A DNA stretch of 55,108 bases from Actinomycetota bacterium (GTDB taxonomy: Bacteria > Actinomycetota > Acidimicrobiia > Acidimicrobiales > Aldehydirespiratoraceae): assembly GCA_029979265.1 (NCBI GenBank), contig JAPOHW010000020.1:1-55108 (forward strand), read 5' to 3'. Positions 3,305-50,648 of the stretch are shown here, piece after piece (within the stretch, counting starts at the first letter, position 1; every line of letters begins with the position of its first letter). Both the position numbers and the translations under genes were made by a program. The notes below the pieces were generated by a model that saw only the letters and a list, made by a program, of their open reading frames with translations, was not told the origin of the DNA and did no database searches.

Positions 3305-3625
3305 ATGGCGCTCATCGTCTGCCCCAACTGCGACGAGGACGAGGAGCTCGACGGCAAGGACATCGACGGCACGATCCACATCACGTGTGCGTCGTGCGGC
3401 GCAACCTGGGAGCGCGACCTCACCCCGCGCTGCGAGACATGCGGCCGGACCGACCTTCGCGATGCACTCGAGGCAATTCTCGACAAGAGTCGGGGAACCC
3501 AGTTGTCGATTCAGGCGATGAAAGTGGTCTGGCTCTGCCCCGACTGCGATGCGGAGAAACTGCGACGCTGGCTCGACTCGAACGTGCCGCTGCCACCCGA
3601 CACGATGCCGGTCGATCCTCGCTAG
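3305..3625 (+). CDS. Small double zinc-ribbon protein, function unknown
   Basis: A 106-residue soluble acidic protein with eight cysteines as four CxxC-type knuckles: CPNC near the N-terminus, CASC, CETC and CPDC near the C-terminus. This suggests two structural zinc ribbons. The ATG at 3305 directly precedes the first knuckle. I do not recognise an enzymatic domain. It is divergent from the amidase, with 63 nt between starts. Its TAG stop shares a CTAG tetranucleotide with the stop of convergent murF. Confidence 0.75.
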   Translation: MALIVCPNCDEDEELDGKDIDGTIHITCASCGATWERDLTPRCETCGRTDLRDALEAILDKSRGTQLSIQAMKVVWLCPDCDAEKLRRWLDSNVPLPPDTMPVDPR

Positions 3626-4944
3626 GTCAGCCCGGCGACCAGTCGTTCGAGGGCAGCGACCCGTGAGCCCTTCACCAGCACCGCATCGCCCTCCCCGAGG
3701 TGGCCCAGACGGTCCACTGCGGCTTCATGATCGTTCACATGCGTCGCCGTCGAGCCATAGTCGGGCGCAGCGACCGCAATCACCTCGATACCGAGTGAAC
3801 CGGCCAGGCTCGCCATCCGTTCGTGTTCGGCGGCGGACTCGTCGCCGAGCTCGGCCATCACCCCGAGGACGGCGATGCGCCGATCGGCCGGCATCGCTGC
3901 CAGCGAACGAAGCGCCCCCGCAACCGACATCGGATTGGCGTTGTAGGTGTCGTCGAGGATCCGGGCGCCGGTGGCGGTCCGTTTGAGGTCCATGCGCATC
4001 GGCGACAGCACGGGTGTCGCCAATCCACGCGCAACGGCCTCGGCGGAGACACCGGTTGCCAGTGCTGCTGCGGCAACGGCCAGCGCATTGTCGACAAGAT
4101 GCAGACCGCGAGCTCCGAGCTCGATCTCGAAGCGGCCCCATTCCGAGACGAGACGAAACCGGGGGCGCAACTCGTCGGAGAGTGTGACCTCTTCGGCTCG
4201 AACGTCACCCCGCTCACCGAAGGTCACAACCGGCGCCGATGCGCGAGACGCCATTGCGGCAACGAGCGGGACATCAGCGTTGAGCACAGCGAGCCCGCGT
4301 GTCGGGAGCGACTCGACGAGTTCGCCTTTCCCGGCCGCGACCGCCTCCACACTCCCGAACTCGCTGGTGTGGGCCGAACCGACGGTGGTGACGATCCCGA
4401 TCGTCGGCTGACCGATCTCGCACAGCATGCTGATATGGCCGAGGCCCCGCGCCCCCATCTCGAGGATCACGACATCGGTACCGCGCTCGCTGGTATTGAT
4501 CAGCGTGAGGGGAAGGCCGATCTCGTTGTTGAACGACCGAACACTCGCCTGCACGCTCGCCTCTTGGGAGAACACTGCGAGCGCAAGATCCTTGGTGGTG
4601 GTCTTGCCCACGGAGCCGGTGATCCCGACCACCTGCGCGCCGGGGAGACGACGACGAGCCGCAGCCCCGAGACGAATCAGCGCCTCGCCGGTGTCGTCGA
4701 CGCGAACGACGGTTGCAGCGCCTGCGTCGACCGGTTGTGCCGCCAAGACGATCCTCGCGCCAGCGCCCACGGCGTCTGTCACGAAGGCGTGACCGTCACG
4801 TTCGGCGACGAGCGGAACGAAGAGCCAATCCCCACCTGACCCGATGTCACGTGAGTCCTGCGTGGCCCGGTCGATCGTTGCGTCACGAGCGCCCTCGACC
4901 GTGCCGTCCACCACCGCTGCGATGTCTGAAGCGACCCAACGCAT
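3622..4944 (-). CDS. murF: UDP-N-acetylmuramoyl-tripeptide--D-alanyl-D-alanine ligase
   Basis: A 440-residue Mur ligase that adds the D-Ala-D-Ala dipeptide to the UDP-MurNAc-tripeptide, the last cytoplasmic step of stem-peptide assembly. The ATP-binding loop GITGSVGKTTTKD sits near residue 110. A FNNEIGLPLTL segment and the Mur ligase C-terminal domain with ILDDTYNANP follow, the latter characteristic of MurF. Length is normal. The start is 32 nt from the divergent start of ddl, which makes the dipeptide MurF uses, so the two may share a control region. The usual mur/fts neighbours are absent. Confidence 0.95.
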   Translation of the reverse strand: MRWVASDIAAVVDGTVEGARDATIDRATQDSRDIGSGGDWLFVPLVAERDGHAFVTDAVGAGARIVLAAQPVDAGAATVVRVDDTGEALIRLGAAARRRLPGAQVVGITGSVGKTTTKDLALAVFSQEASVQASVRSFNNEIGLPLTLINTSERGTDVVILEMGARGLGHISMLCEIGQPTIGIVTTVGSAHTSEFGSVEAVAAGKGELVESLPTRGLAVLNADVPLVAAMASRASAPVVTFGERGDVRAEEVTLSDELRPRFRLVSEWGRFEIELGARGLHLVDNALAVAAAALATGVSAEAVARGLATPVLSPMRMDLKRTATGARILDDTYNANPMSVAGALRSLAAMPADRRIAVLGVMAELGDESAAEHERMASLAGSLGIEVIAVAAPDYGSTATHVNDHEAAVDRLGHLGEGDAVLVKGSRVAALERLVAGLT

Positions 4945-4976
4945 GTGGGGAGCATGACACGGCTACGGTCATCGAC

Positions 4977-6116
4977 GTGACCGCCCCCGCCGCCAGCGCC
5001 AACGACCGAGTCCGTCTCGTCGTTCTCTTCGGTGGCCAGTCGGCCGAACACGACGTGTCGTGTGTCTCCGCCCGCCACGTCCTCGCCGCCGCCGATCCGG
5101 CGATGTACGACATCGACGCGATCGGTATCACCCGCGACGGCGTCTGGGTGCGGGCCGAGGGAGCGCTGGCCGCGCTCACGGCCGGGACGGAGGCCCTGCC
5201 CGACCGTCTCGTCGCGACGGGTCCGGGTATCGATCCCTTGCCGACCCTCGCTGCGGGCGATACCTCCACGACCGTCGTCCTCCCGATCCTGCATGGGCCG
5301 ATGGGAGAGGACGGCACGATGCAGGGACTCCTCGAACTTGCCGATGTCCCCTATGTCGGTGCCGGGGTGCTTGCCTCTGCGCTGTGCATGGACAAGGTGG
5401 CGTGCAAACACCACCTCGCAGCTCACGGCATCCCCCAGGGCGCGTACCGGTGGATCACGGTCGATCAGGGCACGGTGCGTCGACCCGACGGCTCGATCGT
5501 GCCCATCGATGTCGAAGTCGATGCGTGTGTCGACGAACTCGGGCTCCCCCTGTTCGTGAAACCGGCCAACATGGGTTCATCCGTCGGGGTGTCACGAGCA
5601 GCGACCGCCGACGCAGCCCGACACGCAATCGACGTCGCCACCTCCTACGACCGTCAGGTGATCATCGAGGAAGCGATTGTCGGCCGCGAGATCGAGATCT
5701 CGGTGCTCGGCAACGAAGACCCCAGGGCGAGCGTGGCGGGCGAGATCACTCCGGGCGCGGACTTCTACGACTACGCCGACAAGTACGAGGCCGGAGCCGA
5801 ACTCACGATCCCCGCCGACCTCTCCGCCTCCGAACTCGCCGAGGTGCAAGCACTCGCCATCGCGGCCTACCGCTCCTGCAAGGTCGAAGGCCTGGCTCGG
5901 GTCGACTTCTTCTACGAGGACGGGAGTCGTGGCGCCGGTACCCGAGGGTGGCTGGTCAACGAGATCAACACGATGCCGGGCTTCACTCCGATCTCGATGT
6001 ATCCGAAGATGTGGCAGGCAGCCGGCCTCGACTATCCGTCATTGCTCGACGAACTCGTGCAGCTGGCCCTGGCCCGACACGACCGAGACAGGCGTCACTC
6101 CCGCACCGATCACTGA
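4977..6116 (+). CDS. ddl: D-alanine--D-alanine ligase
   Basis: A 379-residue ATP-grasp ligase joining two D-alanines for peptidoglycan. The N-terminal LFGGQSAEHDVSCVSA signature is followed by the GPMGEDGTMQGLLEL segment, KPANMGSSVGVSRA in the ATP-grasp domain, and the Mg-binding, substrate-closing end NEINTMPGFTPISMYPKMW. I chose the GTG at 4977 because it leaves a short, plausible N-terminus and lies just outside divergent murF; longer in-frame extensions overlap murF. Pairing with murF supports the assignment. Confidence 0.95.
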   Translation: MTAPAASANDRVRLVVLFGGQSAEHDVSCVSARHVLAAADPAMYDIDAIGITRDGVWVRAEGALAALTAGTEALPDRLVATGPGIDPLPTLAAGDTSTTVVLPILHGPMGEDGTMQGLLELADVPYVGAGVLASALCMDKVACKHHLAAHGIPQGAYRWITVDQGTVRRPDGSIVPIDVEVDACVDELGLPLFVKPANMGSSVGVSRAATADAARHAIDVATSYDRQVIIEEAIVGREIEISVLGNEDPRASVAGEITPGADFYDYADKYEAGAELTIPADLSASELAEVQALAIAAYRSCKVEGLARVDFFYEDGSRGAGTRGWLVNEINTMPGFTPISMYPKMWQAAGLDYPSLLDELVQLALARHDRDRRHSRTDH

Positions 6117-6144: not shown

Positions 6145-6738
6145 TCAGTCAGCCGGCTCGAGTGCGGCACGAAGAAAGCGCGTGAGTTCCTGGCGACGGG
6201 CGACGGTGCCGCGCAGGGTCGGTGGCAGCCCCATGGCTCGCTGGACCTCCAGCTCGGTGGCCACCCCGACGACGGTCGAATACAGCGACAACAACAGCAT
6301 CTCCGGGTCGGAGCGCCGGAGGTGACCGGCGTCCATCTCGCGTTGCAGAAAATCACGGGCCCGGTCGAGGACCGGCGCAATTTGCGTGGCAAGCCGGTCC
6401 GCCGACAGTGAGCCCGGCCTGGTGACCTCACGGATCAGTCCGAGGAGTTCCGGTTGTGCAACCGCAAGTCGGAAGACCCTTCGCACGATCGCCTCGACCT
6501 GGTCGAGGCCAACCAATCCGCGAGACGCCTCCTCGTCGAAGGCCTTGACGAGATCAACCGCTGCTGCATCGATGACGGCCTCGAACACCGCCTGTTTCGA
6601 TGGGAAGTAGTAGAGAATCGTCTGCTTGCGAATACCGAGCTGGTCGGCGAGCGCATCGAGCGATGTGACTGCAAAGCCCTCTGTGCCGTAGGCACGAAGC
6701 GCAGCATCGAGGATGCGGTCCCGGGTCGTTTCGGCCAT
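6145..6738 (-). CDS. TetR/AcrR-family transcriptional regulator
   Basis: A 197-residue TetR-type repressor. The N-terminal helix-turn-helix covers about residues 8-55, with VTSLDALADQLGIRKQTIL and the YYFPSK motif that ends the DNA-binding domain. The rest is an all-helical ligand-binding and dimerisation domain. It is divergent from the acyl reductase-HAD gene, and the 60 nt between the two starts hold a perfect 22-bp palindrome. The likely role is autoregulation plus control of the lipid cassette, with a fatty acyl-CoA or related lipid as inducer. The ligand is inference. Confidence 0.93.
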   Translation of the reverse strand: MAETTRDRILDAALRAYGTEGFAVTSLDALADQLGIRKQTILYYFPSKQAVFEAVIDAAAVDLVKAFDEEASRGLVGLDQVEAIVRRVFRLAVAQPELLGLIREVTRPGSLSADRLATQIAPVLDRARDFLQREMDAGHLRRSDPEMLLLSLYSTVVGVATELEVQRAMGLPPTLRGTVARRQELTRFLRAALEPAD

Positions 6739-6758
6739 GGGGCAAGAGATATCACAGA

Positions 6759-6780
6759 CTCTCTACCAATTGGTAGAGAG
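6759..6780. promoter_or_regulatory. Perfect 22-bp palindrome, probable TetR operator
   Basis: The half-site CTCTCTACCAA is followed directly by its exact reverse complement. It lies between the divergent TetR start (6738) and the GTG start of the acyl reductase-HAD gene (6799). Length, symmetry and position are those of a TetR-family operator able to block both promoters. I cannot place confident -10/-35 boxes beside it. Confidence 0.8.
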
Positions 6781-6798
6781 GTCTGTTAGAACTGACCT

Positions 6799-9231
6799 GT
6801 GATTCGGGAAAACCTTTCCGGCAAGCGCATCGCCATCACCGGCTCGACCGGATTCCTCGGCACCGCGCTCGTCGAACGGTTCCTTCGCTCCGTCCCCGAT
6901 TGTGACCTCGTCCTCATCGTGCGACCCGGTCGCCGGGGCGCTCAGAACCGGGTGAAACGAGACATCCTGAAAAACGACGCCTTCGATCGGCTTCGCGCCG
7001 CCTACGCCGACAATCCCGTCGCCGTCGGCGGCTTCGACGGCGAAACCTTCGACGAGATGTGCGATCGCCGCGTCGTTGCGGTCGAGGGTGACGTCGGCCA
7101 GGACGGACTGGGACTCGACGATGACGGTCGTGCCCTGATGGCCACGGTCGACATCGCCGTGCACTCCGCAGCAACGGTGAGCTTCGACTCGGCGCTCGAC
7201 GACGCCGTACAGGTCAACCTTCTCGGGCCGGGCCGAGTCGCTGCTGCGCTGCGCACCGCCGCAGCGGCCCGCACCGAGACCACACCTGGCGGGCTCGCCC
7301 CCGGTGAACCCGCCTATCTCGTCGCGGTCTCGACCTGTTACGTAGCTGGCTCGAGGCGCGGCAACGCTCCCGAGCAGATGGTGCAGGATTCCCCGTTCTT
7401 CGTCGACGTCGACTGGCGTGCCGAAGTCGACAACGCCTTCCGGGCCCGCACGGACGCAGAGCAGGCCAGCCGGACCCCCGAGCGCCTGCGCAAACTCGAG
7501 ACGGAGGCGATCCATATTCTCGGCGCCGCCGGTACGCCGGCGATCGCAGAGCGAGTCGAGAATCTTCGACAGAAGTGGGTCGGCGATCAGATGACTGCAT
7601 CCGGGCGGGTTCGCGCCAGCAGCCTCGGCTTCCCCGACGCCTACGCCTTCACCAAGGCACTGGGCGAACGGAGCCTCTGTGAGACACGCGGCGACGTCCC
7701 CGTCGCAATCGTTCGCCCATCGATCATCGAATCGGCACTCTCCGAGCCGGTTCCCGGCTGGATCCGCGGATTCCGAATGGCCGAGCCCGTGATCGCCGCC
7801 TACGCCCGCGGGCTGCTCAAGGAGTTCCCCGGCGTTCCAGAAGGCGTAATCGATGTCATCCCCGTCGACCTCGTCGTCGCGACCATCCTTGCCACCGCCG
7901 CCCGTGGTCCGCATATCGACCCCGACACCGGAGACCACCGACCCGACGTCATCCAGATCGCATCGGGGGCTGCCAACCCGTTCAAGTACGGACAGCTCGT
8001 CGACCTCGTGCGCGCGTACTTCACCGAACACCCGGTGTACGACGAAAAGAACCAACCCATCTCGGTACCCGAGTGGTCGTTTCCCGGCCGCGGCCGCGTG
8101 AACCGACAACTGAGCCGGGCCCAATTCGCACTCAATGCCGGCGAGCGAATCCTCGATGCCCTGCCGCTGCGGGGAAAGCAGGCCGAGGTCGGAGCCGAAC
8201 TCGAACAACGCAAGGAGTTGCTCGAGCGGGCCAGCGGCTATGTGGAGCTCTACGGCGCATACACCGAGTGCGAGGCGATCTACCAGCTCGAGCGCCTGTA
8301 CGACCTGTGGAACGGTCTCGACGACGCCGATCGACGCGACTTCAACATGGATCCCCGCTCGATCGACTGGAAGGTCTACGCCCACGACATCCAGCTGCCC
8401 TCCACGGTGAAGCAGGCCCGCCTGAAGATGACGCCGAGCCGAGGACCGTCGGTCGATCGCAACGAGCGCCTTCGAAAGAACGTCCTGTCGCCCGACCGCC
8501 ACCTCGCCGTGTTCGACCTGGAGAACACGCTCATCGCCTCGAACGTCGTTGCATCCTATTCGTGGCTCGCAACCCGCCGGCTCGACACCCCCGACCGGGT
8601 ACGCTTCACCCTCAAAACACTCCGAGAGGCCCCAACCCTGTGGTCCCTCGACCGCGCCGACCGCAGCGACTTCCTGCGGTACTTCTACCGCCGGTTCGAA
8701 GATGCTCCGATCGACCAACTGCAGGCCGACTCGACCGAGATGTTGAGTGATCTCTTGATGACGAAGTCCTTCCCGGCCGCCATCCGGCGCGTCCGACAAC
8801 ATCGAGCACTTGGCCATCGCACCCTGCTCATCACCGGCGCACTCGACCTCGTGGTCGAGCCGCTGCGCCCGCTCTTCGACGACATCGTGGCCGCCGAGAT
8901 GAGCACATCGAACGGCACCTACGACGGCCAACTCACCGCCGTTCCGCCGACCGGTGAAGCCCGCTACTCGACCCTCGTCGACTACGCCGCTGCGCACGGC
9001 CTCGATCTTGGCGAGTCGGTCGCCTACGCCGACTCGTCGTCGGATCTCCCGATGCTGGAGGCGGTGGGCTTTCCCGTTGCAGTCAACGCCGAGACCAAAC
9101 TTGCGACCATTGCACGTCGGCGCGGCTGGCTGATCGAGCACTGGTCGAAGTCCGCCGGTGCACCCAACCGCGTCATCCCCATCGGTCCTCGCACCTTGCG
9201 AGGTCCCCTGCGAAAGCAGCGAGTCGGCTGA
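6799..9231 (+). CDS. Fatty acyl-CoA reductase (SDR) fused to HAD-IB phosphatase domain
   Basis: An 810-residue two-domain protein. Residues ~8-400 are an extended SDR fold of the fatty acyl-CoA reductase (male-sterility/NAD_binding_4) type, with TGSTGFLG near residue 14 and the catalytic YxxxK at Tyr282/Lys286. It should reduce an acyl thioester to aldehyde or alcohol with NAD(P)H. Residues ~570-800 are a HAD-IB hydrolase of the phosphoserine phosphatase type, with FDLENT at 572-577, ITGALD, and YADSSSDLPML as the terminal metal-binding motif. The usual DxDxT nucleophile motif reads D573-x-E575. GTG start at 6799, 18 nt beyond the palindrome. First gene of a three-gene unit with a LarA-like gene and plsC. 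The lipid product is unknown. Confidence 0.88.
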   Translation: MIRENLSGKRIAITGSTGFLGTALVERFLRSVPDCDLVLIVRPGRRGAQNRVKRDILKNDAFDRLRAAYADNPVAVGGFDGETFDEMCDRRVVAVEGDVGQDGLGLDDDGRALMATVDIAVHSAATVSFDSALDDAVQVNLLGPGRVAAALRTAAAARTETTPGGLAPGEPAYLVAVSTCYVAGSRRGNAPEQMVQDSPFFVDVDWRAEVDNAFRARTDAEQASRTPERLRKLETEAIHILGAAGTPAIAERVENLRQKWVGDQMTASGRVRASSLGFPDAYAFTKALGERSLCETRGDVPVAIVRPSIIESALSEPVPGWIRGFRMAEPVIAAYARGLLKEFPGVPEGVIDVIPVDLVVATILATAARGPHIDPDTGDHRPDVIQIASGAANPFKYGQLVDLVRAYFTEHPVYDEKNQPISVPEWSFPGRGRVNRQLSRAQFALNAGERILDALPLRGKQAEVGAELEQRKELLERASGYVELYGAYTECEAIYQLERLYDLWNGLDDADRRDFNMDPRSIDWKVYAHDIQLPSTVKQARLKMTPSRGPSVDRNERLRKNVLSPDRHLAVFDLENTLIASNVVASYSWLATRRLDTPDRVRFTLKTLREAPTLWSLDRADRSDFLRYFYRRFEDAPIDQLQADSTEMLSDLLMTKSFPAAIRRVRQHRALGHRTLLITGALDLVVEPLRPLFDDIVAAEMSTSNGTYDGQLTAVPPTGEARYSTLVDYAAAHGLDLGESVAYADSSSDLPMLEAVGFPVAVNAETKLATIARRRGWLIEHWSKSAGAPNRVIPIGPRTLRGPLRKQRVG

Positions 9232-9255
9232 GCCGGCCCACAGGAGTGTTGTCCC

Positions 9256-10872
9256 ATGGCCACTGATCCCCGCCGCCAAGCGCCCCGTCCCGGCTTCGTT
9301 CTGAACGTCGATCGGCAAACGCCACCGATCCTGTTCCACCACGGCGACAACTTCCGGCTCGAGAAGCTCCCGGCCGACCGAACCCGGGTGATCTACCCGG
9401 CCGAACCGTTGCCCGGACTTCCCGATCCCGAGGGGTCGATCCGAGACGCGCTGCTCAACCCGATCGACGACGATCCCTTGCCGTCGCTGCTGAAGCCCGG
9501 CATGAAGCTCACGATTGCGTTCGACGATCTGTCGCTGCCGCTCCCATCAATGCGCAAGCCCGACATCCGGCAACGCATCATCGAGCAGGTGCTCGACATG
9601 GCTGCAGCAGCCGGCGTCGACGACGTGCACCTGATCGCAGCGCTCGCGCTGCACCGTCGCATGACCGAGGACGAGTTGCGCCACGCACTCGGCGATCGCG
9701 TCTATGACGCGTTTGCGCCCCAGGGGGCCCTCTACAACCACGACGCCGAGGACCCCGATGGCATGGTCGAGTTGGGCCTGACCCGTCACGACGAGCAGGT
9801 CACCATGAACAAGCGGGCTGCCGAGTCAGACCTTGTCGTGTATGTGAACCTCAACATCGTGTCGATGGACGGCGGTTGGAAGAGCACCGCCACCGGTCTC
9901 TCGGGCTACTCGGGTATCCGCCACCACCACAATGTAGCGACGATGCGCGAATCCAAGAGCTTCATGGATCGCCACAGTTCCGAACTCCATCACAGCAACT
10001 GGCGTCAGGGGGAGGTCATCAAGAACCACGGCCCTCGGATCTTCCAGATCGAGACCACCATCAACAACAACACGTTCGGATACGACGGTCCCCTGTCGGT
10101 CCTGCAGAAGCGTGAGTGGGAGTGGACGGCCCGAGACCGGGCCACGTTCATGGGCATGAAAAAAGGCCTCGACGTGATGCCATCGAGCGCTCGACGTCAG
10201 ATCTTCAACAACTGGAAGGCACCGTACGAACTCACGTCCGTGCAGGCGGGCAACGTCGAGTCGGTGCACGAGGTCACCCTCGAGCACTGCTTCAAACAGC
10301 ATCTCGTGCCCGTCGAGGGACAGACCGACGTCCTCACCTTCGGCCTTCCCTACATCTGCCCCTACAACGTCAACTCGGTCATGAACCCGATCCTCGTGAT
10401 GTGCCTCGGACTCGGCTACTTCTTCAACATGTACCGAGGAAAGCCGCTGGTCCGGGAGGGTGGTGTGCTCATCATGAGCCACCCCACTCCATGGGAATTT
10501 CATCCGGTCCATCATCCCAGCTACATCGACTTCTTCGAACAGTTGCTGGCGGAGACGACCGATCCGGTCGAACTCGAGCAGAAGTACGAGAAGCAGTTCG
10601 CAGAAGACGAGTGGTACATCCACCTCTATCGGACGAGCTACGCCTACCACGGAGTACACCCGTTCTACATGTGGTACTGGGGCGCTCACGCACTGCAGTG
10701 GCTCGGTCGCGTCATCATCGTCGGTGGCCATCCCCGATCGGTGCGGCGCCTCGGCTTCCAACCCGCCTCCACGATGCAGGACGCACTCGAGATGGCGAGC
10801 GACGTGGTGGGATCGAGCCCGTCGATCACCCACCTCCACAATCCACCGATCCTCATGGCTGACGTCACGTGA
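9256..10872 (+). CDS. LarA-like (lactate racemase/DUF2088 fold) protein, function unknown
   Basis: A 538-residue protein whose first ~230 residues follow the LarA N-terminal domain. DDLSLPLP at 90-97 corresponds to the DDxTRP motif, His133 sits in ALHRRMTEDE, NHD is at 161-163 and Lys209 is in DGGWKS, where LarA carries the lysine that binds its nickel-pincer cofactor. The EPH segment that supplies another catalytic His in LarA is not conserved; a VNLNIVSMDGG stretch takes its place. The C-terminal ~300 residues are rich in His and aromatic residues. AGGAG precedes the ATG by 9 nt, and the stop overlaps the PlsC start. A racemase or epimerase acting on a 2-hydroxyacyl or head-group substrate is possible but unproven; larBCE are not in the window. 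Confidence 0.7.
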   Translation: MATDPRRQAPRPGFVLNVDRQTPPILFHHGDNFRLEKLPADRTRVIYPAEPLPGLPDPEGSIRDALLNPIDDDPLPSLLKPGMKLTIAFDDLSLPLPSMRKPDIRQRIIEQVLDMAAAAGVDDVHLIAALALHRRMTEDELRHALGDRVYDAFAPQGALYNHDAEDPDGMVELGLTRHDEQVTMNKRAAESDLVVYVNLNIVSMDGGWKSTATGLSGYSGIRHHHNVATMRESKSFMDRHSSELHHSNWRQGEVIKNHGPRIFQIETTINNNTFGYDGPLSVLQKREWEWTARDRATFMGMKKGLDVMPSSARRQIFNNWKAPYELTSVQAGNVESVHEVTLEHCFKQHLVPVEGQTDVLTFGLPYICPYNVNSVMNPILVMCLGLGYFFNMYRGKPLVREGGVLIMSHPTPWEFHPVHHPSYIDFFEQLLAETTDPVELEQKYEKQFAEDEWYIHLYRTSYAYHGVHPFYMWYWGAHALQWLGRVIIVGGHPRSVRRLGFQPASTMQDALEMASDVVGSSPSITHLHNPPILMADVT

Positions 10873-11819
10873 GCAAGCTGGCGAAGCAGTTGGGACTTCC
10901 GAAGATCCCGGCCGCACTGTCGGTGCGCCGCCTCCTCGGCGCCCTGGACTTCCCACTGCGGGCACCCTCGACCCCCAAAGGGGTCGCGCCCAAGCCACGG
11001 GTTCGAACAACCGGCGGTGATTACGACACCTCGTGGGCCCGGAAGCGGCCAGCTCGGATCGCTCGCGCTGCGATCGTCGAAGGCCCGATGCGACTTGCCG
11101 TGGCTGGTCTGGCCGCACCGGAGCGCAACGGTGCCGACCGACTCCTCGACCTGCCCGACGAACCGCTCATCTTCGCCGCCAACCATCACAGCCATCTCGA
11201 CACACCGTTGATGCTGACCTCGATCCCCGAGCCGTGGCGCCACAAGATGATCGTGGGCGCCGCCGCCGACTACTTCTTCGGTACCAAGGTCACCGCTGCA
11301 CTGTCGTCGCTGACCATGGGCGCAATCCCGATCGAACGCACCAAGATCGAACGCCGCAGCGCGAACCTCGCAGCCGACCTCATCGGCGAGGGCTGGAGTC
11401 TGCTGATCTTCCCCGAGGGCGGTCGCTCCCCCGACGGCTGGGGTCAGCCGTTCCGCGGCGGTGCTGCATTCCTGGCGGCGAAGACCGGCGTGCCCGTTGT
11501 CCCTGTGCACCTGGCCGGCACGGGCCGGATCCTTCGGAAGGGCCGATCGGTGCCACGACCGAGCACGACCTCGGTCACCTTCGGCCGTCCGCTCACCCCT
11601 GCCCCGGACGAAAATGCAAACCGATTTGCCGCTCGTATCGAACGAGAGGTTGCGGCCCTCGCCGACGAGGTGACGACCGACTGGTACACCGCCCGCCGGC
11701 GTGCGTACGCAGGCGACAGCCCTGACCTGACCGGCCCGGAGTCGGGTCGATGGCGGCGAGCGTGGGCTCTGGGTGATCGACGAGCCACGAAGCGTCGCCG
11801 CACCTGGCCCGACATCTGA
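10869..11819 (+). CDS. 1-acyl-glycerol-3-phosphate acyltransferase (PlsC-like)
   Basis: A 316-residue PlsC-family acyltransferase, likely acylating a lysophospholipid or related alcohol at the inner membrane face. Motif I is NHHSHLD (HX4D), motif III FPEGGRSPDG and motif IV VPVVPVHLAGTG. An N-terminal extension of ~80 residues precedes the catalytic core. The GTG start lies in a GTGA overlap with the upstream LarA-like stop, so translation is coupled. Its position after a reductase-phosphatase fusion suggests a dedicated lipid pathway rather than housekeeping phosphatidate synthesis. Confidence 0.9.
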   Translation: MSKLAKQLGLPKIPAALSVRRLLGALDFPLRAPSTPKGVAPKPRVRTTGGDYDTSWARKRPARIARAAIVEGPMRLAVAGLAAPERNGADRLLDLPDEPLIFAANHHSHLDTPLMLTSIPEPWRHKMIVGAAADYFFGTKVTAALSSLTMGAIPIERTKIERRSANLAADLIGEGWSLLIFPEGGRSPDGWGQPFRGGAAFLAAKTGVPVVPVHLAGTGRILRKGRSVPRPSTTSVTFGRPLTPAPDENANRFAARIEREVAALADEVTTDWYTARRRAYAGDSPDLTGPESGRWRRAWALGDRRATKRRRTWPDI

Positions 11820-17061: not shown

Positions 17062-18327
17062 GTGACCGACAGCATCACTATCACCGACAACAGGACCGGT
17101 GAGTCGCTCGAGATCCCCCTCCACAACGGCGGTGTCGATGCCGCCGAGTGGCGCAAGCTGCTTCCCGGCATCTGGTTCCACGATCCGGGGTTGGCGACAA
17201 CGTCGGGTGCCGAGAGTGCCATCACCGAACTCGATGGCGACAACGGCATCCTGCGATATCGCGGCTACCCCATCGAGCAGCTCGCCGAGCACAGTTCCTT
17301 CCTCGAGGTGACGTATCTGCTGCTCAAGGGCGAACTTCCCACGAAGGCCGAGCTCGACGGCTTCGTCCACGACGTCACGTACCACACCTTCGTGCACGAG
17401 AAGTTCCGTCGCCGCATGTACGACGCCTACCACTACGACGCGCATCCGATGGGCCTGCTCATGTCGGGGGTAAGTGGCCTGTCGACCTTCTATCCCGACT
17501 CGAAAGACATCGGAGACGCCGACAAGCGGATGGAGAACGCAATCCGCCTGATCGCAAAGATGCCCACGCTCGCTGCGTCTGCATTCCGCCATCGCAGGGG
17601 CCAGCCGTTCGTCTACCCCGACAACGAGCTCGGCTACGCGCCGAACTTCCTCAAGATGATGTTTGAGATCGGTTCGCCCTACGAAGTGGATCCGGCCTTC
17701 GAGAAGGCAATGGAGATCCTGCTGATCCTCCACGCCGATCACGAGCAGAACTGTTCCACCACGGCCGCCCGTGTGGTCGGTTCGTCCCACACCGACCCGT
17801 ACACCGCCATCGGCGCAGCATGCGGTGCCCTCTACGGCCCCCGCCACGGCGGCGCCAACGAGGCCGTGCTCCAGATGCTGGACGACATCGGGACCTACGA
17901 CAACGTCGAACCGTTCATCGAAGGGGTCAAGGCGGGCAAGGAACGCCTGATGGGCTTCGGTCATCGCGTCTACAAGAACTACGACCCCCGTGCCCGCATC
18001 ATCAAGCAAGCCGCCTACGACGTCTTCGCCGTCACCGGCACCAACCCACTGCTCGACATCGCACTCAAGCTCGAAGAGGTTGCCCTCGAAGACGAGTACT
18101 TCGTCAGCCGTCGCCTCTATCCGAATGTCGACTTCTACAGCGGCCTCATCTACGAGTCGATGGGCTTCCCTCGCGACATGTTCACGGTGCTGTTCGCCAT
18201 CGGTCGTACCCCTGGCTGGCTCGCCCACTGGGACGAGATGCTTGCCCAGAACAGTCGTATCGCGCGCCCTCGTCAGCTCTACATCGGGGCGAGCGAGCGG
18301 CCCTACGTGCCGATCGGCGAACGCTGA
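17062..18327 (+). CDS. gltA: Citrate synthase
   Basis: A 421-residue type II-like citrate synthase condensing acetyl-CoA and oxaloacetate. HADHEQNCSTTAARVVGSS carries the first catalytic His, GFGHRVYKNYDPRA the second, and VDFYSGLIYESMG the catalytic Asp. The N-terminal strand-rich segment (SITITDNRTGESLEIPL) is typical of Gram-negative-type hexameric enzymes. I chose the GTG at 17062 with AGAGGA upstream; an ATG-initiated frame at 17008 would add 18 residues. It provides the TCA context for the aceK found ~2 kb downstream on the other strand. Confidence 0.93.
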   Translation: MTDSITITDNRTGESLEIPLHNGGVDAAEWRKLLPGIWFHDPGLATTSGAESAITELDGDNGILRYRGYPIEQLAEHSSFLEVTYLLLKGELPTKAELDGFVHDVTYHTFVHEKFRRRMYDAYHYDAHPMGLLMSGVSGLSTFYPDSKDIGDADKRMENAIRLIAKMPTLAASAFRHRRGQPFVYPDNELGYAPNFLKMMFEIGSPYEVDPAFEKAMEILLILHADHEQNCSTTAARVVGSSHTDPYTAIGAACGALYGPRHGGANEAVLQMLDDIGTYDNVEPFIEGVKAGKERLMGFGHRVYKNYDPRARIIKQAAYDVFAVTGTNPLLDIALKLEEVALEDEYFVSRRLYPNVDFYSGLIYESMGFPRDMFTVLFAIGRTPGWLAHWDEMLAQNSRIARPRQLYIGASERPYVPIGER

Positions 18328-19963: not shown

Positions 19964-21724
19964 TCAGTCGTCGGCGAATCGATACTGGTGGGGATACGGG
20001 AAGAAGTCAGGTCGACGACCCCCCTCGTGGCCGTCCTTCATCGCCTGCCAGAACTCCACGGTGGAGATCTCCGGGTGGAACTCGTCGAAAACGTCACCGA
20101 CGATGCGCGGCGATCGGAGATACGTCCTGAACTCCTCGGGGAAGACGTCGTTGGGTTCGACCGGGAACCAGGGCTGATCGAGCATCTCGTCCTCGTAGGA
20201 CTGGCTCACCGGCATCGTGCGGAAATTGACCTCGGAGAGAAGCGCAAGTTCGTCGTAGTCGTAGAACACCACCACGCCATGGCGGCTCACACCGAAGTTC
20301 TTCGGGAACAGATCACCCGGGAAGATGTTGGCCGAGGCAAGATCCTTGATGGCATTGCCGTAGTCGATCGCCGCGGCGCGCGCGAGATCGGGGCCCATCT
20401 CGCGCAGATACAGATCGAGCGGGTAGAGCCGACGCTCGGTGTAGACGTGATGGAGAATGACCTCGTCGTCGGTAACGGTGACCGTGCGCGTGCAGTCCTC
20501 GAGGAGCTCCTCGATGAGTTCTTCGTCGAAGCGGTCACGCCGAAAGGACAGCTCTCGAAACTCCTGCGCATCGACGAGCCGACCGACCTTGTCGTGGTCG
20601 AACACCAGCTTGTAGCGACGTTGTACGTCTTCGGGGGTGGTTCGCTTCGACTGCGGAAAACGGTCCTTGATCAGCTTGAAGACCACGTCGAAGGACGGCA
20701 GCGTGAACACCGCCATCACCATGCCTCGGGCTCCCCTCGCCCGCTCGAATCGGGTGTTGGAGTGTTCCATGTGGCGGTAGAGCGCTCGAAAGAGGTTCGT
20801 CTTTCCGTGCGCGCTGTAGCCGATGGACGTGTAGAGCTCGGCGACCGGTTTCACCGGCAGCAAACTCTTCAGAAACGACACCACGGCAGCCGGGCGTCGG
20901 GCCAGCACGTGGAAGTAGGACCGGGTGTAACCGAACAATCGGCTGGCTGCGAGCTCGGTGAGGAGCACCGCATCGACGCGTACGCCGTCATCGGAGACGG
21001 TGATCGGCAAAATGACCGGGTTGACCCGGTTGAGCCACCGCAACCGGCCCACGAGGTAGGCACCCTTGTTGCGATAGAAGACCGGCCGCAGGATGTCGAG
21101 GGCATCGATGTGTCCGTCCCAGTTCTCCGACAACCAGGTCTCGATGACAGCGGCTACCCGATCGGCATCACGCTCGATGGCATGGAACTGCGATGCGAGA
21201 GGCGAATGCTCGAGAATTTGGAGGATCGAGTCGGCCAACGAGTCGTCGACCGGAAAATGCCGGTACTCGCCGCGACTGCCATCGTCGGCCGGCAGGGCCG
21301 TCGGGCCGAGCCACAGGAACTCGAGGTCGATGTCGAGGCCGATGACCTCGAACAACCGACGGGTGACCGAGTTGTAGAACGTCTCGGCCAACTCGAAATC
21401 CATGCGTTGGCTGACGAGTGACACATAGCGCCGCCGAGCGTCGACCCAGAGCTGGCGGGCTTCGTCAGCATCGGCGGGGACGATGACCTGGGCTGACTCG
21501 ACTGCGCTCCAGACCGCCTTCTTGTGCAGATTGAGTCGCTCGCTGTTGTCGTCTTGGTGGGCGTCCCACTCTCGCTGCAGAAACCGTGTTGCGGCACGGT
21601 GAGTGACCTCGAGGAACGATTCATGGAAGCTCACGAACGTGTCGTGCAACAACCGTGCGATCCGTTCGACTCGCGGATCGGTGGCTCCCGACGAACGTTC
21701 GGCAGCAGGAAGGACGTCGGCCAT
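19964..21724 (-). CDS. aceK: Isocitrate dehydrogenase kinase/phosphatase
   Basis: A 586-residue bifunctional enzyme that phosphorylates and dephosphorylates isocitrate dehydrogenase to steer carbon into the glyoxylate shunt; E. coli AceK is 578 residues. Matches run through both domains. In the kinase domain I see HGKTNLFRALYRHMEHSN, RGMVMAVFTLPSFDVVFK(L)IKDRF, DHDKVGR and the YTERRLYPLDLYL segment. Toward the C-terminus are DYGNAIKDLASANIFPGD, KNFGVSRHGVVVFYDYDE and VFPEEFRTYL. The ATG at 21724 is the natural start. AceK is best known from Proteobacteria, so its presence here is notable. No aceA, aceB or icd lies in the window. Confidence 0.95.
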   Translation of the reverse strand: MADVLPAAERSSGATDPRVERIARLLHDTFVSFHESFLEVTHRAATRFLQREWDAHQDDNSERLNLHKKAVWSAVESAQVIVPADADEARQLWVDARRRYVSLVSQRMDFELAETFYNSVTRRLFEVIGLDIDLEFLWLGPTALPADDGSRGEYRHFPVDDSLADSILQILEHSPLASQFHAIERDADRVAAVIETWLSENWDGHIDALDILRPVFYRNKGAYLVGRLRWLNRVNPVILPITVSDDGVRVDAVLLTELAASRLFGYTRSYFHVLARRPAAVVSFLKSLLPVKPVAELYTSIGYSAHGKTNLFRALYRHMEHSNTRFERARGARGMVMAVFTLPSFDVVFKLIKDRFPQSKRTTPEDVQRRYKLVFDHDKVGRLVDAQEFRELSFRRDRFDEELIEELLEDCTRTVTVTDDEVILHHVYTERRLYPLDLYLREMGPDLARAAAIDYGNAIKDLASANIFPGDLFPKNFGVSRHGVVVFYDYDELALLSEVNFRTMPVSQSYEDEMLDQPWFPVEPNDVFPEEFRTYLRSPRIVGDVFDEFHPEISTVEFWQAMKDGHEGGRRPDFFPYPHQYRFADD

Positions 21725-21776
21725 GACGGCGATCACCCTACTTCGCAACACGTGATGCCGAGCGTTCGGCCAGCCG

Positions 21777-22061
21777 TCAGCTTTCGGCGCCAGCTCGCTC
21801 GTGGTGCCGGATGACCTCGGCGATGACGAACCGCAAGAAACTCTCGCTGAACCCGGGATCGAGGTTTGCCTCTTCGGCCAACCGGCGCAGACGGGCAATC
21901 TGCACATCCTCACGACCCGGATCAGCAGCCGGTAGGCCAGCAGAGGCCTTGTACTCGCCGACCGCTTTCGTGATTTTGAACCGCTCAGCAAGAAGCAGAA
22001 CAAGCGCCGCATCGATGTTGTCGATGCTGGAACGGAAGGTCTCGAGTTGCGGGTCTGCCAT
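21777..22061 (-). CDS. Chorismate mutase, AroQ type
   Basis: A 94-residue all-helical AroQ-class chorismate mutase converting chorismate to prephenate for Phe/Tyr synthesis. The N-terminal helix IDNIDAALVLLLAERFKITK, a Lys in VGEYKA, the ADPGREDVQ loop and helix 3 ending VIAEVIRHHE match the family. The ATG lies 17 nt after the CCA of tRNA-Val(GAC), with no Shine-Dalgarno in between. It may therefore be expressed from a processed tRNA-mRNA transcript. Confidence 0.9.
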   Translation of the reverse strand: MADPQLETFRSSIDNIDAALVLLLAERFKITKAVGEYKASAGLPAADPGREDVQIARLRRLAEEANLDPGFSESFLRFVIAEVIRHHERAGAES

Positions 22062-43137: not shown

Positions 43138-44631
43138 GTGGCCGAACAACAGACCATCGGCATCGTGGGTACTGGCGTCATCGGTTCCGGATGGGCGGTC
43201 CGAGTGCTCTCGCGCGGCTACGACGTCATTGCGTGGGACCCTGCCCCGGGAGCCGAGGAACGCCTTCGGCGTGCGGTGGAACGCTCGTGGGCGTCCGCAA
43301 CGAGACTCGGCCTGTTTCCCGGTGCAACACCCGATCGACTCAGCTGGGCTGAATCAGCCGAGGCGCTCGCAGCAGCGGCCAACTGGATTCAAGAGAGCGC
43401 GCCGGAAGATGAAGGGGTGAAGATCCCGCTGCTCCAGCGACTCGCTGCCGCATCGGCGCCCGACACGATCATCGCGTCGAGTTCCTCGGGGCTCCTCCCC
43501 TCACGCCTCCAGTCCGGCTGTGCGCATCCCGAGCGGGTGCTGATCGGACATCCGTTCAACCCCGTGTACCTCCTTCCCCTCGTCGAGATCGTCGCAGGCG
43601 AGCAGACCTCGCCGGCAGCCGTGGCTGCGGCGGTGTCCCATTACGACGATCTGGTCATGCACCCACTGGTCGTGCGCAACGAGATCGAGGGGTACCTGTC
43701 CGATCGCATGCAGGAGGCGGTGTGGCGCGAGATCCTCCACCTCGTCAACGATGACGTTGCGACAACCGACGAACTCGACACCGCCCTCGTCTACGGACCT
43801 GGGCTTCGGTGGGCGGGGATGGGCACCAACCTCACCTTCCACCTAGCCGGTGGTGAGGACGGTATGCGTCACATGCTCCGCCAATTCGGTCCTGCCCTGA
43901 AGCTTCCATGGACCAGGTTGGAGGCTCCCGAACTCACCGACACCCTGATCGAGGCGATGGCCGACGGCACCGACGCGCAAGCCGCCGGCCGGTCGATCGC
44001 CGAACTCGAACGGCTCCGCGACGACTACCTCCTGGCCGTCATGCGTTCGCTGCGTCCGCTCGACCTCGGCGCCGGTCGCCTCATCGCCGAGCGAGAGGCC
44101 CGCATCCACCAGGCCGGACAGAACACGCAACCGTGGCGGCCCGGCGACACCGTGGCGGCCCCACTGGCGCTCTACGAGGCTCCGGTCGAACCCGATTGGG
44201 TCGACTACAACGATCACATGACCGAGTCGGCATTCCTGCTCGCATTCGGCTGGGCCAGCGACAAGTTGTTCCGTTACATCGGAATCGACGAGGACTACCG
44301 GGCATCAGGTCATTCGTTCTTCACCGTCGAGACCCACATCAACTATCTGCAGGAAGCAGCGCTCGGCGACCCGCTGCACGTCACCACCCAGGTGCTCGGT
44401 GTCGATGCCAAGCGACTGCACTTCTTCCACGCCATGCACCACGCCGACACCGGTGAGCTGCTGTGCACCACCGAGCAGATGCTGCTCCACGTCGACAACA
44501 ACGAGGGACGCACTGCCCCGATTCTGCCGGGGCCAGCCGCTGCACTGGCCGCCATCGTCCAGGCCCACGCCGATCTCCCGGTCCCGGGTCAGGTCGGGCG
44601 GGTCATGCACATCCCCACCCCCGAGTCGTAA
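43138..44631 (+). CDS. L-carnitine dehydrogenase fused to betainyl-CoA thioesterase-like domain
   Basis: A 497-residue fusion. Residues 1-~320 form a 3-hydroxyacyl-CoA dehydrogenase-like NAD enzyme, with GIVGTGVIGSGW at 8-19, IQESAPEDEGVK, and HPFNPVYLLPLVEIVAG, as in L-carnitine 3-dehydrogenase. Residues ~340-490 form a hot-dog-fold thioesterase (WVDYNDHMTESAF and HINYLQEAALGD). Fused dehydrogenase-thioesterase genes for carnitine breakdown are known in other bacteria. The GTG at 43138 has AGGGG 7 nt upstream; a TTG at 43096 is a weaker choice. The downstream caiD and acyl-CoA dehydrogenase genes support carnitine or gamma-butyrobetaine as substrate. Confidence 0.87.
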   Translation: MAEQQTIGIVGTGVIGSGWAVRVLSRGYDVIAWDPAPGAEERLRRAVERSWASATRLGLFPGATPDRLSWAESAEALAAAANWIQESAPEDEGVKIPLLQRLAAASAPDTIIASSSSGLLPSRLQSGCAHPERVLIGHPFNPVYLLPLVEIVAGEQTSPAAVAAAVSHYDDLVMHPLVVRNEIEGYLSDRMQEAVWREILHLVNDDVATTDELDTALVYGPGLRWAGMGTNLTFHLAGGEDGMRHMLRQFGPALKLPWTRLEAPELTDTLIEAMADGTDAQAAGRSIAELERLRDDYLLAVMRSLRPLDLGAGRLIAEREARIHQAGQNTQPWRPGDTVAAPLALYEAPVEPDWVDYNDHMTESAFLLAFGWASDKLFRYIGIDEDYRASGHSFFTVETHINYLQEAALGDPLHVTTQVLGVDAKRLHFFHAMHHADTGELLCTTEQMLLHVDNNEGRTAPILPGPAAALAAIVQAHADLPVPGQVGRVMHIPTPES

Positions 44632-47842: not shown

Positions 47843-48626
47843 TGCAGTTCGCACCACGATCACCGGCGGCGGAACCATCCTCGAGGTCGTTCTTGATCGA
47901 CCCAAGGCAAACGCCATCGACGCAGCCACGAGTCGAGAGATGAGCCGTGTCTTCGCCGACTTCCGAGACGATCCGACGCTGCGTGTCGCGATCTTGACCG
48001 GGGGCGGCGACCGCTTCTTCTCGGCGGGGTGGGATCTCCACGCCGCCGCCGACGGGGAGGCGTTCGAAGCCGACTATGGCGAAGGAGGGTTCGGTGGGTT
48101 CGTCGAACTGCCGAACCGAACCAAGCCGGTCATCTGCGCCGTCAATGGCATGGCGGTCGGTGGAGGTTTCGAAATCGCCATGGCAGCCGAATTCGTGGTG
48201 GCAGCCGAGCATGCTCGCTTCTGGTTGCCCGAAGCAGGGCTCGGCATCATCCCCGACGCCGGCGCGATCCGCCTGCCCCGCCACCTGCCGCCCGTGATCG
48301 CAAACGAGATCCTGTACGCCGGGCGTCGCTTGGACGCCGACGAAGCCCTTCGCTGGGGCCTGGTCAATGCGATGGTTCCCGGCGATCAGCTCATGGCGGC
48401 TGCTCGTGAGCTGGCCGGCCGCATTCTGGCATCGGCACCCCTTGCGGTGGGAGCGATCATGGAGATCGACCGCTCGACCTCGCATCGTTCGCTCGACGAT
48501 GCGTTCACCTCGATGCGTTCCGGCGGCCTGCCGATCTACCAACAGATGTTGGCGTCGGAGGACGCAGCCGACGGTCCCGGCCGGTTCGGCACCGACGACG
48601 GGCCGCCTCGCTGGAAGGGCCGCTAG
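47835..48626 (+). CDS. caiD: Carnitinyl-CoA dehydratase-like enoyl-CoA hydratase
   Basis: A 263-residue crotonase-fold enzyme that strongly resembles E. coli CaiD (261 aa), which hydrates crotonobetainyl-CoA to L-carnitinyl-CoA. Shared stretches include LDRPKANAIDAATS, RDDPTLRVAILTGG, RFFSAGWDL and the terminal PPRWKGR. Catalytic glutamates correspond to Glu113 (GGGFE) and Glu133 (WLPEAGLGIIPDAG). The ATG at 47835 lies 8 nt inside the upstream gene. This is the best single marker that the operon handles trimethylammonium acyl-CoAs. The stop shares a CTAG with the convergent alkylsulfatase gene. Confidence 0.88.
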   Translation: MPDAVRTTITGGGTILEVVLDRPKANAIDAATSREMSRVFADFRDDPTLRVAILTGGGDRFFSAGWDLHAAADGEAFEADYGEGGFGGFVELPNRTKPVICAVNGMAVGGGFEIAMAAEFVVAAEHARFWLPEAGLGIIPDAGAIRLPRHLPPVIANEILYAGRRLDADEALRWGLVNAMVPGDQLMAAARELAGRILASAPLAVGAIMEIDRSTSHRSLDDAFTSMRSGGLPIYQQMLASEDAADGPGRFGTDDGPPRWKGR

Positions 48627-50521
48627 GGCTCGACAATCCCGAAGAAACCGCTGAACGAGTCGAGGTTGCCGAGCAGCGTGCGCACAGACGCCTCACCCTC
48701 GACGGACACACCCGTCAACGACAGGAAGTCATCGACGCCGATCTCACCCTTCAACAGGCGGGCCAAATCCATCTTGGTCGACGTGAGCGAGGCCTCGGCA
48801 CCGTCAAGTCTGATCCCAGCTCGGTGATGGATCGCACAGTTGTCGAGTCCGATTGCATGATGTTCGTCGACATCGGTGAAGTGCCAGTTGATCTCGAAGG
48901 ACTCGCCGTCGAGATGCTCTGACTGCAGTCGCACGCCGATGAGTTCGACGAGCATGCCGACATCGAGCTGATCGGTGATCGAGCGACCGCCTCCCATGCC
49001 GAGACCTTTGCTGCCAGTCCGGAGCTCCATCGCCCCCATCAGATACGAGTCTCGCCACGGCCCCGATTCCGACTGGTACCCCATCTGTTCGAAGGTGTCG
49101 GCCTGCAGCAGCCGACCGGCCTCGAACTCCGGCTCGGCGAACACGAGATGGTTGAGCACCTCGCTGGCCCATCGGTAATCGCCTCCCTCATATGCCCGTC
49201 GTGCCTCGGCGAGCACTGCCTCTCGCCCACCCATGGCCTGTACGTAGCGTGTGGCGCTCTCCTCGGGTGGGTGGGGATTGAGGTGTGCCGGGTTGCCGTC
49301 GTACCAACCGAGATAGCGCTGGTAGATCGCCTTTGCGTTGTGACTGACCGTCCCGTAGTAGCCGCGAGTGTGGCTCTGGGTCAGAAAACAGGCCGGCTGG
49401 ACGAGATCTTCGGCAATCTCGCGCATCGTCATGCCGTGATTCGCCCGCCGCATCGTCTGGTCGTGCAGCCAGCGGTACATGTCCCGCTGGAGTTCGAGAT
49501 AGCGGACAGCGTCATCATGACCGAAGCGCGGCCAGTTGTGGGTCGAGAACATGACGTCCATCGCGCTGCCGAACAGATCGAGCGCTTCCTGGATGTACTT
49601 GCTCCAACTCAACGTGTCACGGGCCTGCGCACCGCGAAACGGCAAGGTGTTGTGCATCGTGTGGGTGCAGTTCTCCGCAATGCACAGCGCACCGAGGTCG
49701 GGAAACATGAAGTTCATCTCGGCTGGAGCCTCGGTTCCTGGCGTGTTCTGAAACACGACACGCACACCGTCGAGCAGCAACTCGGTCCCGGTGAGGCTGA
49801 TCTCTTCGGTCGGGGCAATCAGATCCGGCGCGGCACGAGGGATGCCCTTGCCCAGACCACTGTCGATGTGCCCCTGCGGGCCCATCGGCAGGAGCGTGCC
49901 GAACTGGTAGAAGGCACGACGCGCCATCGCCGGACCTGCGATCAGGTTCTCGGACACCGCTTCTCGCAGAAAACCCTCCGGCGCCAGGATCCGCACGTCA
50001 CCCCTGTCGACTGCAGACTTGTCGACGACGCCCAAGATCCCGCCGTAGTGATCGACGTGACTGTGGGTGTACAGCACCGTGGTGACGGGGCGCTCACCGA
50101 GCGTGGCGTTCGCCAGGTCGAGGCACGCTCGTGCCGTGAAGGCGGTGGTCAACGGATCGATCACGACCCAGCCGTCGTCACCAGCGATGAACGTGATGTT
50201 CGAGATGTCATAGCCCCGCGCCTGCCAGACCCTGTCGGCCACCTCGAACAGACCGTGTATCGCATTGTGGCGGCCGTGCCGCCACAGGCCCGGGTGCACC
50301 GGGGCAGGGGCATCCTCACGCTGGCGGGGGGAGTCGTAGTCCTTGACGTCCCAGGCGAGTCCCAGTGGCCCTTCGATCTCTCCGGTCTCGTGCTGTGCGA
50401 TCAGGCCCCGAGTTGCTCGCTCCCAGTCGTCCTCCAGGTCCAGGGCTGCGCCATGCGCTGCGTTGACGGTGGCGGTGTGGTCGGTGGCCGGCTTGGCAGC
50501 ACGAGGGTCGGGTTCGCTCAT
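48623..50521 (-). CDS. Alkyl/aryl sulfatase, SdsA1/BDS1-like (MBL fold)
   Basis: A 632-residue zinc-dependent alkylsulfatase cleaving long-chain alkyl sulfates. The MBL metal motif THSHVDHYGG, the second metal region IAENCTHTMHN and the FSTHNWPRFG segment are present. A helical dimerisation domain (ESATRYVQAMGGREAVLAEA) and a C-terminal SCP2-like lipid-binding domain follow. There is no clear signal peptide. The ATG at 50521 is preferred over one six codons earlier. An inducer or transporter gene is not adjacent. Confidence 0.92.
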   Translation of the reverse strand: MSEPDPRAAKPATDHTATVNAAHGAALDLEDDWERATRGLIAQHETGEIEGPLGLAWDVKDYDSPRQREDAPAPVHPGLWRHGRHNAIHGLFEVADRVWQARGYDISNITFIAGDDGWVVIDPLTTAFTARACLDLANATLGERPVTTVLYTHSHVDHYGGILGVVDKSAVDRGDVRILAPEGFLREAVSENLIAGPAMARRAFYQFGTLLPMGPQGHIDSGLGKGIPRAAPDLIAPTEEISLTGTELLLDGVRVVFQNTPGTEAPAEMNFMFPDLGALCIAENCTHTMHNTLPFRGAQARDTLSWSKYIQEALDLFGSAMDVMFSTHNWPRFGHDDAVRYLELQRDMYRWLHDQTMRRANHGMTMREIAEDLVQPACFLTQSHTRGYYGTVSHNAKAIYQRYLGWYDGNPAHLNPHPPEESATRYVQAMGGREAVLAEARRAYEGGDYRWASEVLNHLVFAEPEFEAGRLLQADTFEQMGYQSESGPWRDSYLMGAMELRTGSKGLGMGGGRSITDQLDVGMLVELIGVRLQSEHLDGESFEINWHFTDVDEHHAIGLDNCAIHHRAGIRLDGAEASLTSTKMDLARLLKGEIGVDDFLSLTGVSVEGEASVRTLLGNLDSFSGFFGIVEP

Positions 50522-50648
50522 CCGCCGAGTATGTCCCACTCCGTCACGACGGTCGCAACCACCGGCGACTCGTACCTTCGGTCGCCACCCGCTGACGCGT
50601 CGGAAGTGGCTCCACAGCCGACGGCATCGACCCTCGGCGCCGGATGCT

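Follow-up and report, generated by a model that had tools for sequence, protein, structure and literature searches.

A conserved actinobacterial cassette joining a fatty acyl-CoA reductase–HAD fusion, a LarA homolog and a PlsC-type acyltransferase, with a likely lipid role

The window analyzed here is a stretch of 55,108 nucleotides, contig 19 of a 3.31-Mb genome (assembly GCA_029979265.1; 93.7% complete) in the actinobacterial family Aldehydirespiratoraceae; near named relatives of this genome are uncultured Acidimicrobiales. It holds three closely packed genes encoding a fatty acyl-CoA reductase (FAR) fused to a HAD-type hydrolase, a homolog of the lactate racemase LarA, and a PlsC-type acyltransferase, set opposite a divergent gene for a TetR-family regulator. 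These genes belong to one conserved unit that occurs in at least 16 families of the phylum, and a lipid role for this cassette is likely. It is proposed, with chances that we regard as about even, that the cassette is controlled through one dedicated TetR operator and makes a reduced lipid derived from a fatty alcohol, in which the LarA homolog, by means of a nickel-pincer (NPN) cofactor, fixes the stereochemical configuration of a hydroxy-acid or polyol moiety. The unexpected point is that a family with no NPN genes found in most of its genomes nevertheless has a strongly constrained LarA with a single catalytic histidine.

Composition and conservation of the cassette

Domain searches and coordinates confirmed all of the parts that a first-pass annotation of the window had named, namely the divergent TetR gene, a perfect palindrome, the FAR-HAD fusion, a LarA-fold protein and a PlsC protein. 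The fusion (810 aa; 6799–9231, plus strand) consists of a FAR half at approximately residues 1–540 and a HAD-IB hydrolase half at residues 569–779. It is followed after 24 nt, not the 25 first counted, by the LarA homolog (538 aa; 9256–10872, plus strand), which matches Lar_N with 129 bits and the LarAH14/15/16 family model NF052592 with 893.9 bits (cut-off 740). The acyltransferase (316 aa; 10869–11819, plus strand; PF01553, 66.3 bits) begins at a GTG codon that overlaps the LarA stop codon in the four bases GTGA (10869–10872), as had been described. The FAR half matches NAD_binding_4 with 167 bits over residues 13–363 and carries both GxxGFLG and YxxxK, the latter at residues 282–286 and in 79/79 aligned FAR sequences (shorter sequences were left out of the catalytic-motif alignments); its C-terminal Sterile domain (PF03015) scores 30.1 bits, with a cut-off of 35.4. 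The HAD half matches PF12710 (90 bits, residues 570–754) and, just over its cut-off of 98.3, TIGR01490 (99.0 bits), and it keeps the nucleophile and both Asp residues of motif IV. The HX4D and EGxR motifs of PlsC are present in 77/77 aligned sequences.

Co-occurrence was assessed in a sample of 296 genomes of the phylum, with a threshold of E 1e-60 for FAR-HAD and the family's own cut-off for LarA. The LarA family was found in 72 genomes and FAR-HAD in 76, with both present in 70. In the two remaining LarA genomes (G149 and G216), only the HAD half is seen, the fusion being cut by an edge of the same contig. When such pieces are counted, FAR-HAD is present in all 72 LarA-family genomes and in just 6 of the 224 others, and three of these six (G095, G141, G287) have pieces of LarA. 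Gene order was followed in a named set of 80 loci fetched with the LarA profile. The first-pass annotation had named rare adjacency of the three genes as the result that would speak against it; in this neighborhood check they are genuinely adjacent, with FAR-HAD at most 1.6 kb upstream of LarA in 73/74 testable loci (1.7 kb in the exception, L211, from the cultured Aquihabitans sp. G128) and PlsC directly 3' of LarA in 75/75. Within the window's family, FAR-HAD stands beside LarA in 49/50 loci and PlsC in 48/50, and all of the gaps (FAR-HAD at L126; PlsC at L088 and L090) are cut by contig ends.

The unit is larger elsewhere. In families other than the window's, FAR-HAD and LarA are at least about 1.2 kb apart, with a gene for a medium-chain zinc alcohol dehydrogenase (about 400 residues) in between. 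It was found upstream of LarA in 45/46 loci outside the family, across 16 families, and in 0/50 within it, and the sole outside locus that lacks it (L043) also shows no FAR-HAD match in the fetched stretch. In the named set, 56/80 loci are without the dehydrogenase, these loci being close relatives that may include some from outside the window's family. The top NCBIfam models for the enzyme are those of scyllo-inosose, L-idonate, L-threonine and related dehydrogenases; these best scores are all far below cut-off and suggest a polyol-type substrate. This fifth gene is lacking in the window. As a whole, the cassette is a stronger observation than had first been claimed. In three loci of family f24 (L034, L035, L044), additional genes were seen between the dehydrogenase and LarA.

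When open frames from loci of 16 families were clustered, LarA, the dehydrogenase, PlsC, FAR-HAD and TetR were the ones that recurred widely. Judged by coordinates, every other cluster that spans at least five families lies over one of the cassette genes in a different reading frame, and what lies below five families consists of MurF and Ddl (three related families), a frame resembling an ABC transporter (four loci) and a few others.

The TetR protein and its predicted operator

The regulator gene (6145–6738, minus strand; PF00440, 49.5 bits, cut-off 24) is divergent from the cassette, and a perfect 22-bp palindrome, CTCTCTACCAATTGGTAGAGAG, with the core CTACC-N4-GGTAG, lies in between at 6759–6780. 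Neither the FasR nor the FadR equivalog cut-off is reached by the TetR protein (21.2 of 330 bits and 22.9 of 200 bits, respectively). TetR homologs accompany the cassette at 25/50 loci in the window's family and 21/46 in other families; both counts take in loci truncated by contig ends. In a first set of divergent TetR/FAR-HAD intergenic regions, the loose core TACC(N0-4)GGTA was present in 36/36. In the named set it was found in 47/50 divergent-TetR regions (missing from L158, L163 and L181) and in 0/18 regions upstream of FAR-HAD without a TetR match, and the strict form CTACC-N4-GGTAG occurs in 20 of the same 50 divergent regions. Across 36 whole genomes, the exact pattern CTACCANNTGGTAG was found in 24, at 26 places, every one of them at the cassette by coordinates; the reversed pattern, taken as a control, is found 13 times across these 36 genomes. 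At six loci with the TetR gene at the far end of the operon (L045, L046, L070, L128, L134, L136), the site stays upstream of FAR-HAD. Altogether, the palindrome is likely a dedicated operator to which the TetR protein is predicted to bind, and one regulator, one operator and one operon is the simplest reading of these patterns.

Catabolic and detoxifying units are often controlled by a TetR repressor acting at a single local operator, and this arrangement counts toward a different explanation, in which a hydroxylated lipid or an aldehyde is sensed by the TetR protein and processed by the enzymes so that it can be disposed of or stored. The dehydrogenase and the FAR could work in either direction, which would suit such a unit. 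Against it, no breakdown enzyme was recognized among the clusters recurring in at least three families, not all of which are annotated, and PlsC points to assembly rather than breakdown; we consider a catabolic or detoxifying unit very unlikely. For the biosynthetic reading, the operator offers a simple assay for the signal that induces the pathway.

The LarA homolog and the genes for its cofactor

The LarA homolog exceeds the NF052592 cut-off across residues 14–537. Its residues H133, K209 and H225 match catalytic, NPN-binding and nickel-binding residues of LarA and are identical in 96/96 aligned sequences. From the retention of K209 and H225, which would hold the cofactor, NPN is predicted to be used, and among solved structures the protein comes closest to a single-histidine LarA loaded with NPN, that of Streptococcus plurextorum. 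Of the two catalytic histidines of LarA (His108 and His174), only the first has an equivalent here, H133. LarA is also the slowest-changing protein of the cassette: within the family, median identity to the window protein is 87%, compared with 74% for FAR-HAD and 70% for PlsC.

Outside the window's family, genes for NPN synthesis mostly accompany the cassette. LarC was found in 62/70 cassette genomes, LarE over its cut-off in 44/51 tested (the misses being G294, G181, G213, G160, G106, G084 and G149) and LarB in 23/29 tested. In the three genomes of family f22 (G226, G051, G075), LarE and LarB come directly after PlsC, and in G289 LarE adjoins PlsC on the opposite strand, so that cofactor genes adjoin the cassette in these genomes. 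The window's family presents another picture. A LarA-domain protein is present in 50/51 genomes and is always the cassette's own, and LarB, LarC and LarE exceed their cut-offs in the same 13/51. No LarA-domain protein besides that of the cassette was found in these 13, which makes it the only LarA-type client of NPN there. The other 37 genomes with LarA (36 without the window's own), in which none of the three cofactor proteins was found over cut-off, keep H133, K209 and H225. In seven genomes of the window's genus, including G336 (contig C78, L138), LarC was seen in two separate pieces in reversed order that enclose larE and larB, that is, as a rearranged and split cyclometallase.

Gaps in draft assemblies do not explain the missing NPN genes, because LarB, LarC and LarE are not found over cut-off in any of 16 g200 genomes, in any of 6 g2 genomes, or in two genomes assembled into one and three contigs (G324 and G312, respectively), and because a single contig of G335 carries both flanks of the G338 lar operon at a spacing of about 0.5 kb, which makes the absence real there. 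In the window's own genome the corresponding flanks lie on two contigs (C23 and C30), with matches 0.5 kb from the end of each, so that an assembly gap may account for the missing genes. A near relative, G338, whose LarA is 99% identical, has all three NPN genes. No sign of relaxed constraint was observed in LarA from genomes without NPN genes: its divergence relative to that of FAR-HAD is 0.52 in g200 and 0.43 in g2, both without NPN genes, and about equal (0.50, from ten pairs only) in g1 genomes that have them.

Two explanations may be considered for a conserved LarA in these genomes. The first is that the protein works without NPN, either by using a different cofactor or by having no redox function, and that the NPN genes found in some genomes serve something else. 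The 37 genomes described above, the real absence of the lar operon in G335 and the similar divergence with and without NPN genes would all fit. Yet the same 37 proteins, without exception, keep K209, H133 and H225, LarE and LarB adjoin the cassette in f22, and LarC is common in cassette genomes outside the family, which makes an NPN-free protein rather improbable. The second is that the window's family consists largely of NPN auxotrophs that take up NPN or a precursor from their neighbors, and that the single-histidine LarA is central to an undescribed lipid pathway in which NPN performs a hidden redox step on a lipid precursor; this is put forward tentatively, as a possibility that we find somewhat doubtful. 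Genomes with larB, larC and larE and without larA have been described (PMC11796402, in the part available), and the reverse case, larA kept in the absence of NPN genes, does not appear in the available parts of that paper or of PMC11770544; a literature search on NPN auxotrophy or uptake returned no title on such a case. The family is thus of use as a natural experiment on whether NPN is shared between cells like a vitamin or a LarA protein works without it.

Proposed pathway and comparison with known systems

A dedicated lipid pathway is the best reading of the cassette because the genes form a conserved unit and most of the catalytic motifs of the reductase, the hydrolase and the acyltransferase are kept. 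To this extent the pathway proposed in the first-pass annotation holds across at least 16 families; the class of its product (ether, wax or hydroxy-lipid) and the ligand of the TetR protein are tentative. The most probable product is a reduced lipid, with LarA setting its polar part, a hydroxy acid or a polyol. The steps, which we infer from the gene order, co-occurrence, operator-like site and catalytic motifs described above, may run as follows. The TetR protein would occupy the 22-bp palindrome until displaced by a lipid or acyl-CoA of the pathway. The FAR domain would reduce an acyl-CoA to an aldehyde or alcohol. A small polar part would have a secondary hydroxyl that, in families other than the window's, the polyol-type zinc dehydrogenase would oxidize or reduce. 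The LarA homolog would invert or isomerize this hydroxyl by way of a hidden hydride transfer on NPN; with a single catalytic histidine left, it may do so in one direction only. A phosphorylated backbone would receive an acyl chain from PlsC and lose its phosphate through the HAD domain. In most genomes of the window's family, NPN would have to be scavenged or made by a route not yet described. If this is true, a nickel cofactor moves into lipid synthesis, and the cassette becomes a genetic handle on the LarAH14/15/16 family.

Several observations weigh against this proposal. The equivalent of His174 is deleted from the LarA homolog, with a four-residue deletion at that place in a profile alignment with LarA and LarA-Sp, and ordinary racemization may therefore be impossible. 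For a tested relative, LarAH14 of Frankia, seven activities were assayed and none was observed. An epimerase-like step had been part of the first-pass annotation; membership in the LarA family stands, but the protein is not simply epimerase-like, since the histidine it lacks is thought to be needed for racemization, and the claim is weakened further by the Frankia result and by the failure to find NPN genes in most genomes of the window's family. LarC was not found in 38/51 genomes of that family or in 8/70 cassette genomes outside it, and in the window's own genome none of LarB, LarC and LarE was found over cut-off. The strict operator core is absent from 30/50 divergent regions of the named set, 27 of which have looser forms, and the exact core is absent from 12/36 genomes. 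The usual motif I of HAD-IB proteins is DxDx(T/V). In the window protein it reads FDLENT (residues 572–577 of the product of 6799–9231), with Glu for the second Asp; this residue is Glu in 42/42 sequences of the family and, outside it, Glu in 23/37 and Asp in 14/37. PlsC falls below the cut-off of the AGP acyltransferase model TIGR00530 (58.1 vs 102.95 bits), so its acceptor is not fixed by score. PlsC is also not essential to the unit, since 12 loci of family f24 show neither a PlsC nor a TetR match near LarA. Moreover, a further gene of the pathway may lie elsewhere in the genome, neighboring frames having been only partly annotated, and any substrate or product proposed for the parts of the cassette is putative.

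An alternative is the synthesis of ether or wax lipids as directed by the elb operon of Myxococcus, with the alcohol supplied by FAR, the product finished by PlsC and HAD, and LarA confined to a side reaction such as the supply of a C3 hydroxy acid. The elb operon likewise joins a FAR1-like domain, an AGPAT-like domain and a HAD protein (PMC9131029, in the part available), and HAD-AGPAT proteins occur in actinobacterial neutral-lipid clusters according to the accessible part of PMC10351704. A side role is a poor fit for LarA, the slowest-changing protein of the cassette. Furthermore, alkyl-DHAP (dihydroxyacetone phosphate) synthase, acyl-CoA ligase and acyl carrier protein (ACP) were not seen, by label, coordinates or sequence, among the partly annotated clusters that occur in at least three families. 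Ether or wax lipid synthesis of this kind is considered unlikely, and we retain the proposal of a reduced lipid with a LarA-dependent polar part.

After PlsC, a gene for a luciferase-type oxidoreductase starts at 11911, and a relative of it was found near the cassette in 18/49 other loci of the window's family and in 0/46 outside. On the other side, MurF and Ddl genes (3622–6116) adjoin the TetR gene and flank the cassette in related families as well, which indicates that its place of insertion is old. Farther away, the window encodes AceK, the isocitrate dehydrogenase kinase/phosphatase (19964–22012, minus strand; both domains score over cut-off), with a gene for citrate synthase nearby (17062–18327); a 3-hydroxyacyl-CoA dehydrogenase fused to a 4HBT thioesterase-like domain (43138–44631, plus strand); and a protein of the alkyl sulfatase family with Alkyl_sulf_dimr and C-terminal domains (48623–50539, minus strand), possibly a lipid or detergent enzyme.

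A literature search found no paper on a combination of FAR-HAD, LarA and PlsC. The LarA reactions given in the accessible parts of the cited literature act on small 2-hydroxy acids. Compared with the lactate racemase LarA of Lactiplantibacillus plantarum, the cassette protein is without the second catalytic histidine, is about 100 residues longer and has no lactate context. It belongs to the same curated family, NF052592, as the LarAH14/15/16 proteins (groups 14 and 15 of Desguin et al. 2020, PMC7583248), and His174 is likewise absent from LarAH groups 14 and 15 (PMC12611868, in the part available); the available portions of the literature on this family describe no reaction, cassette context or persistence without NPN genes. 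The single-histidine LarA proteins of Streptococcus plurextorum and Blautia wexlerae (9q3k, 9q3j; PMC12611868) have Asn at the position of His174 and glycolytic gene neighbors, whereas the cassette protein is four residues shorter in this segment, lacks any counterpart of that residue and has lipid-type enzymes as neighbors. For the cassette as a whole, the elb operon of Myxococcus xanthus (ElbA–ElbE), which makes ether lipids, differs in that ElbD also has acyl-CoA synthetase and ACP domains, found in none of the window's cassette proteins, and in that the operon as described in the available part of PMC9131029 has no LarA homolog or zinc dehydrogenase. With FAR, AGPAT and HAD in one operon, elb is nonetheless the closest known combination to the cassette.

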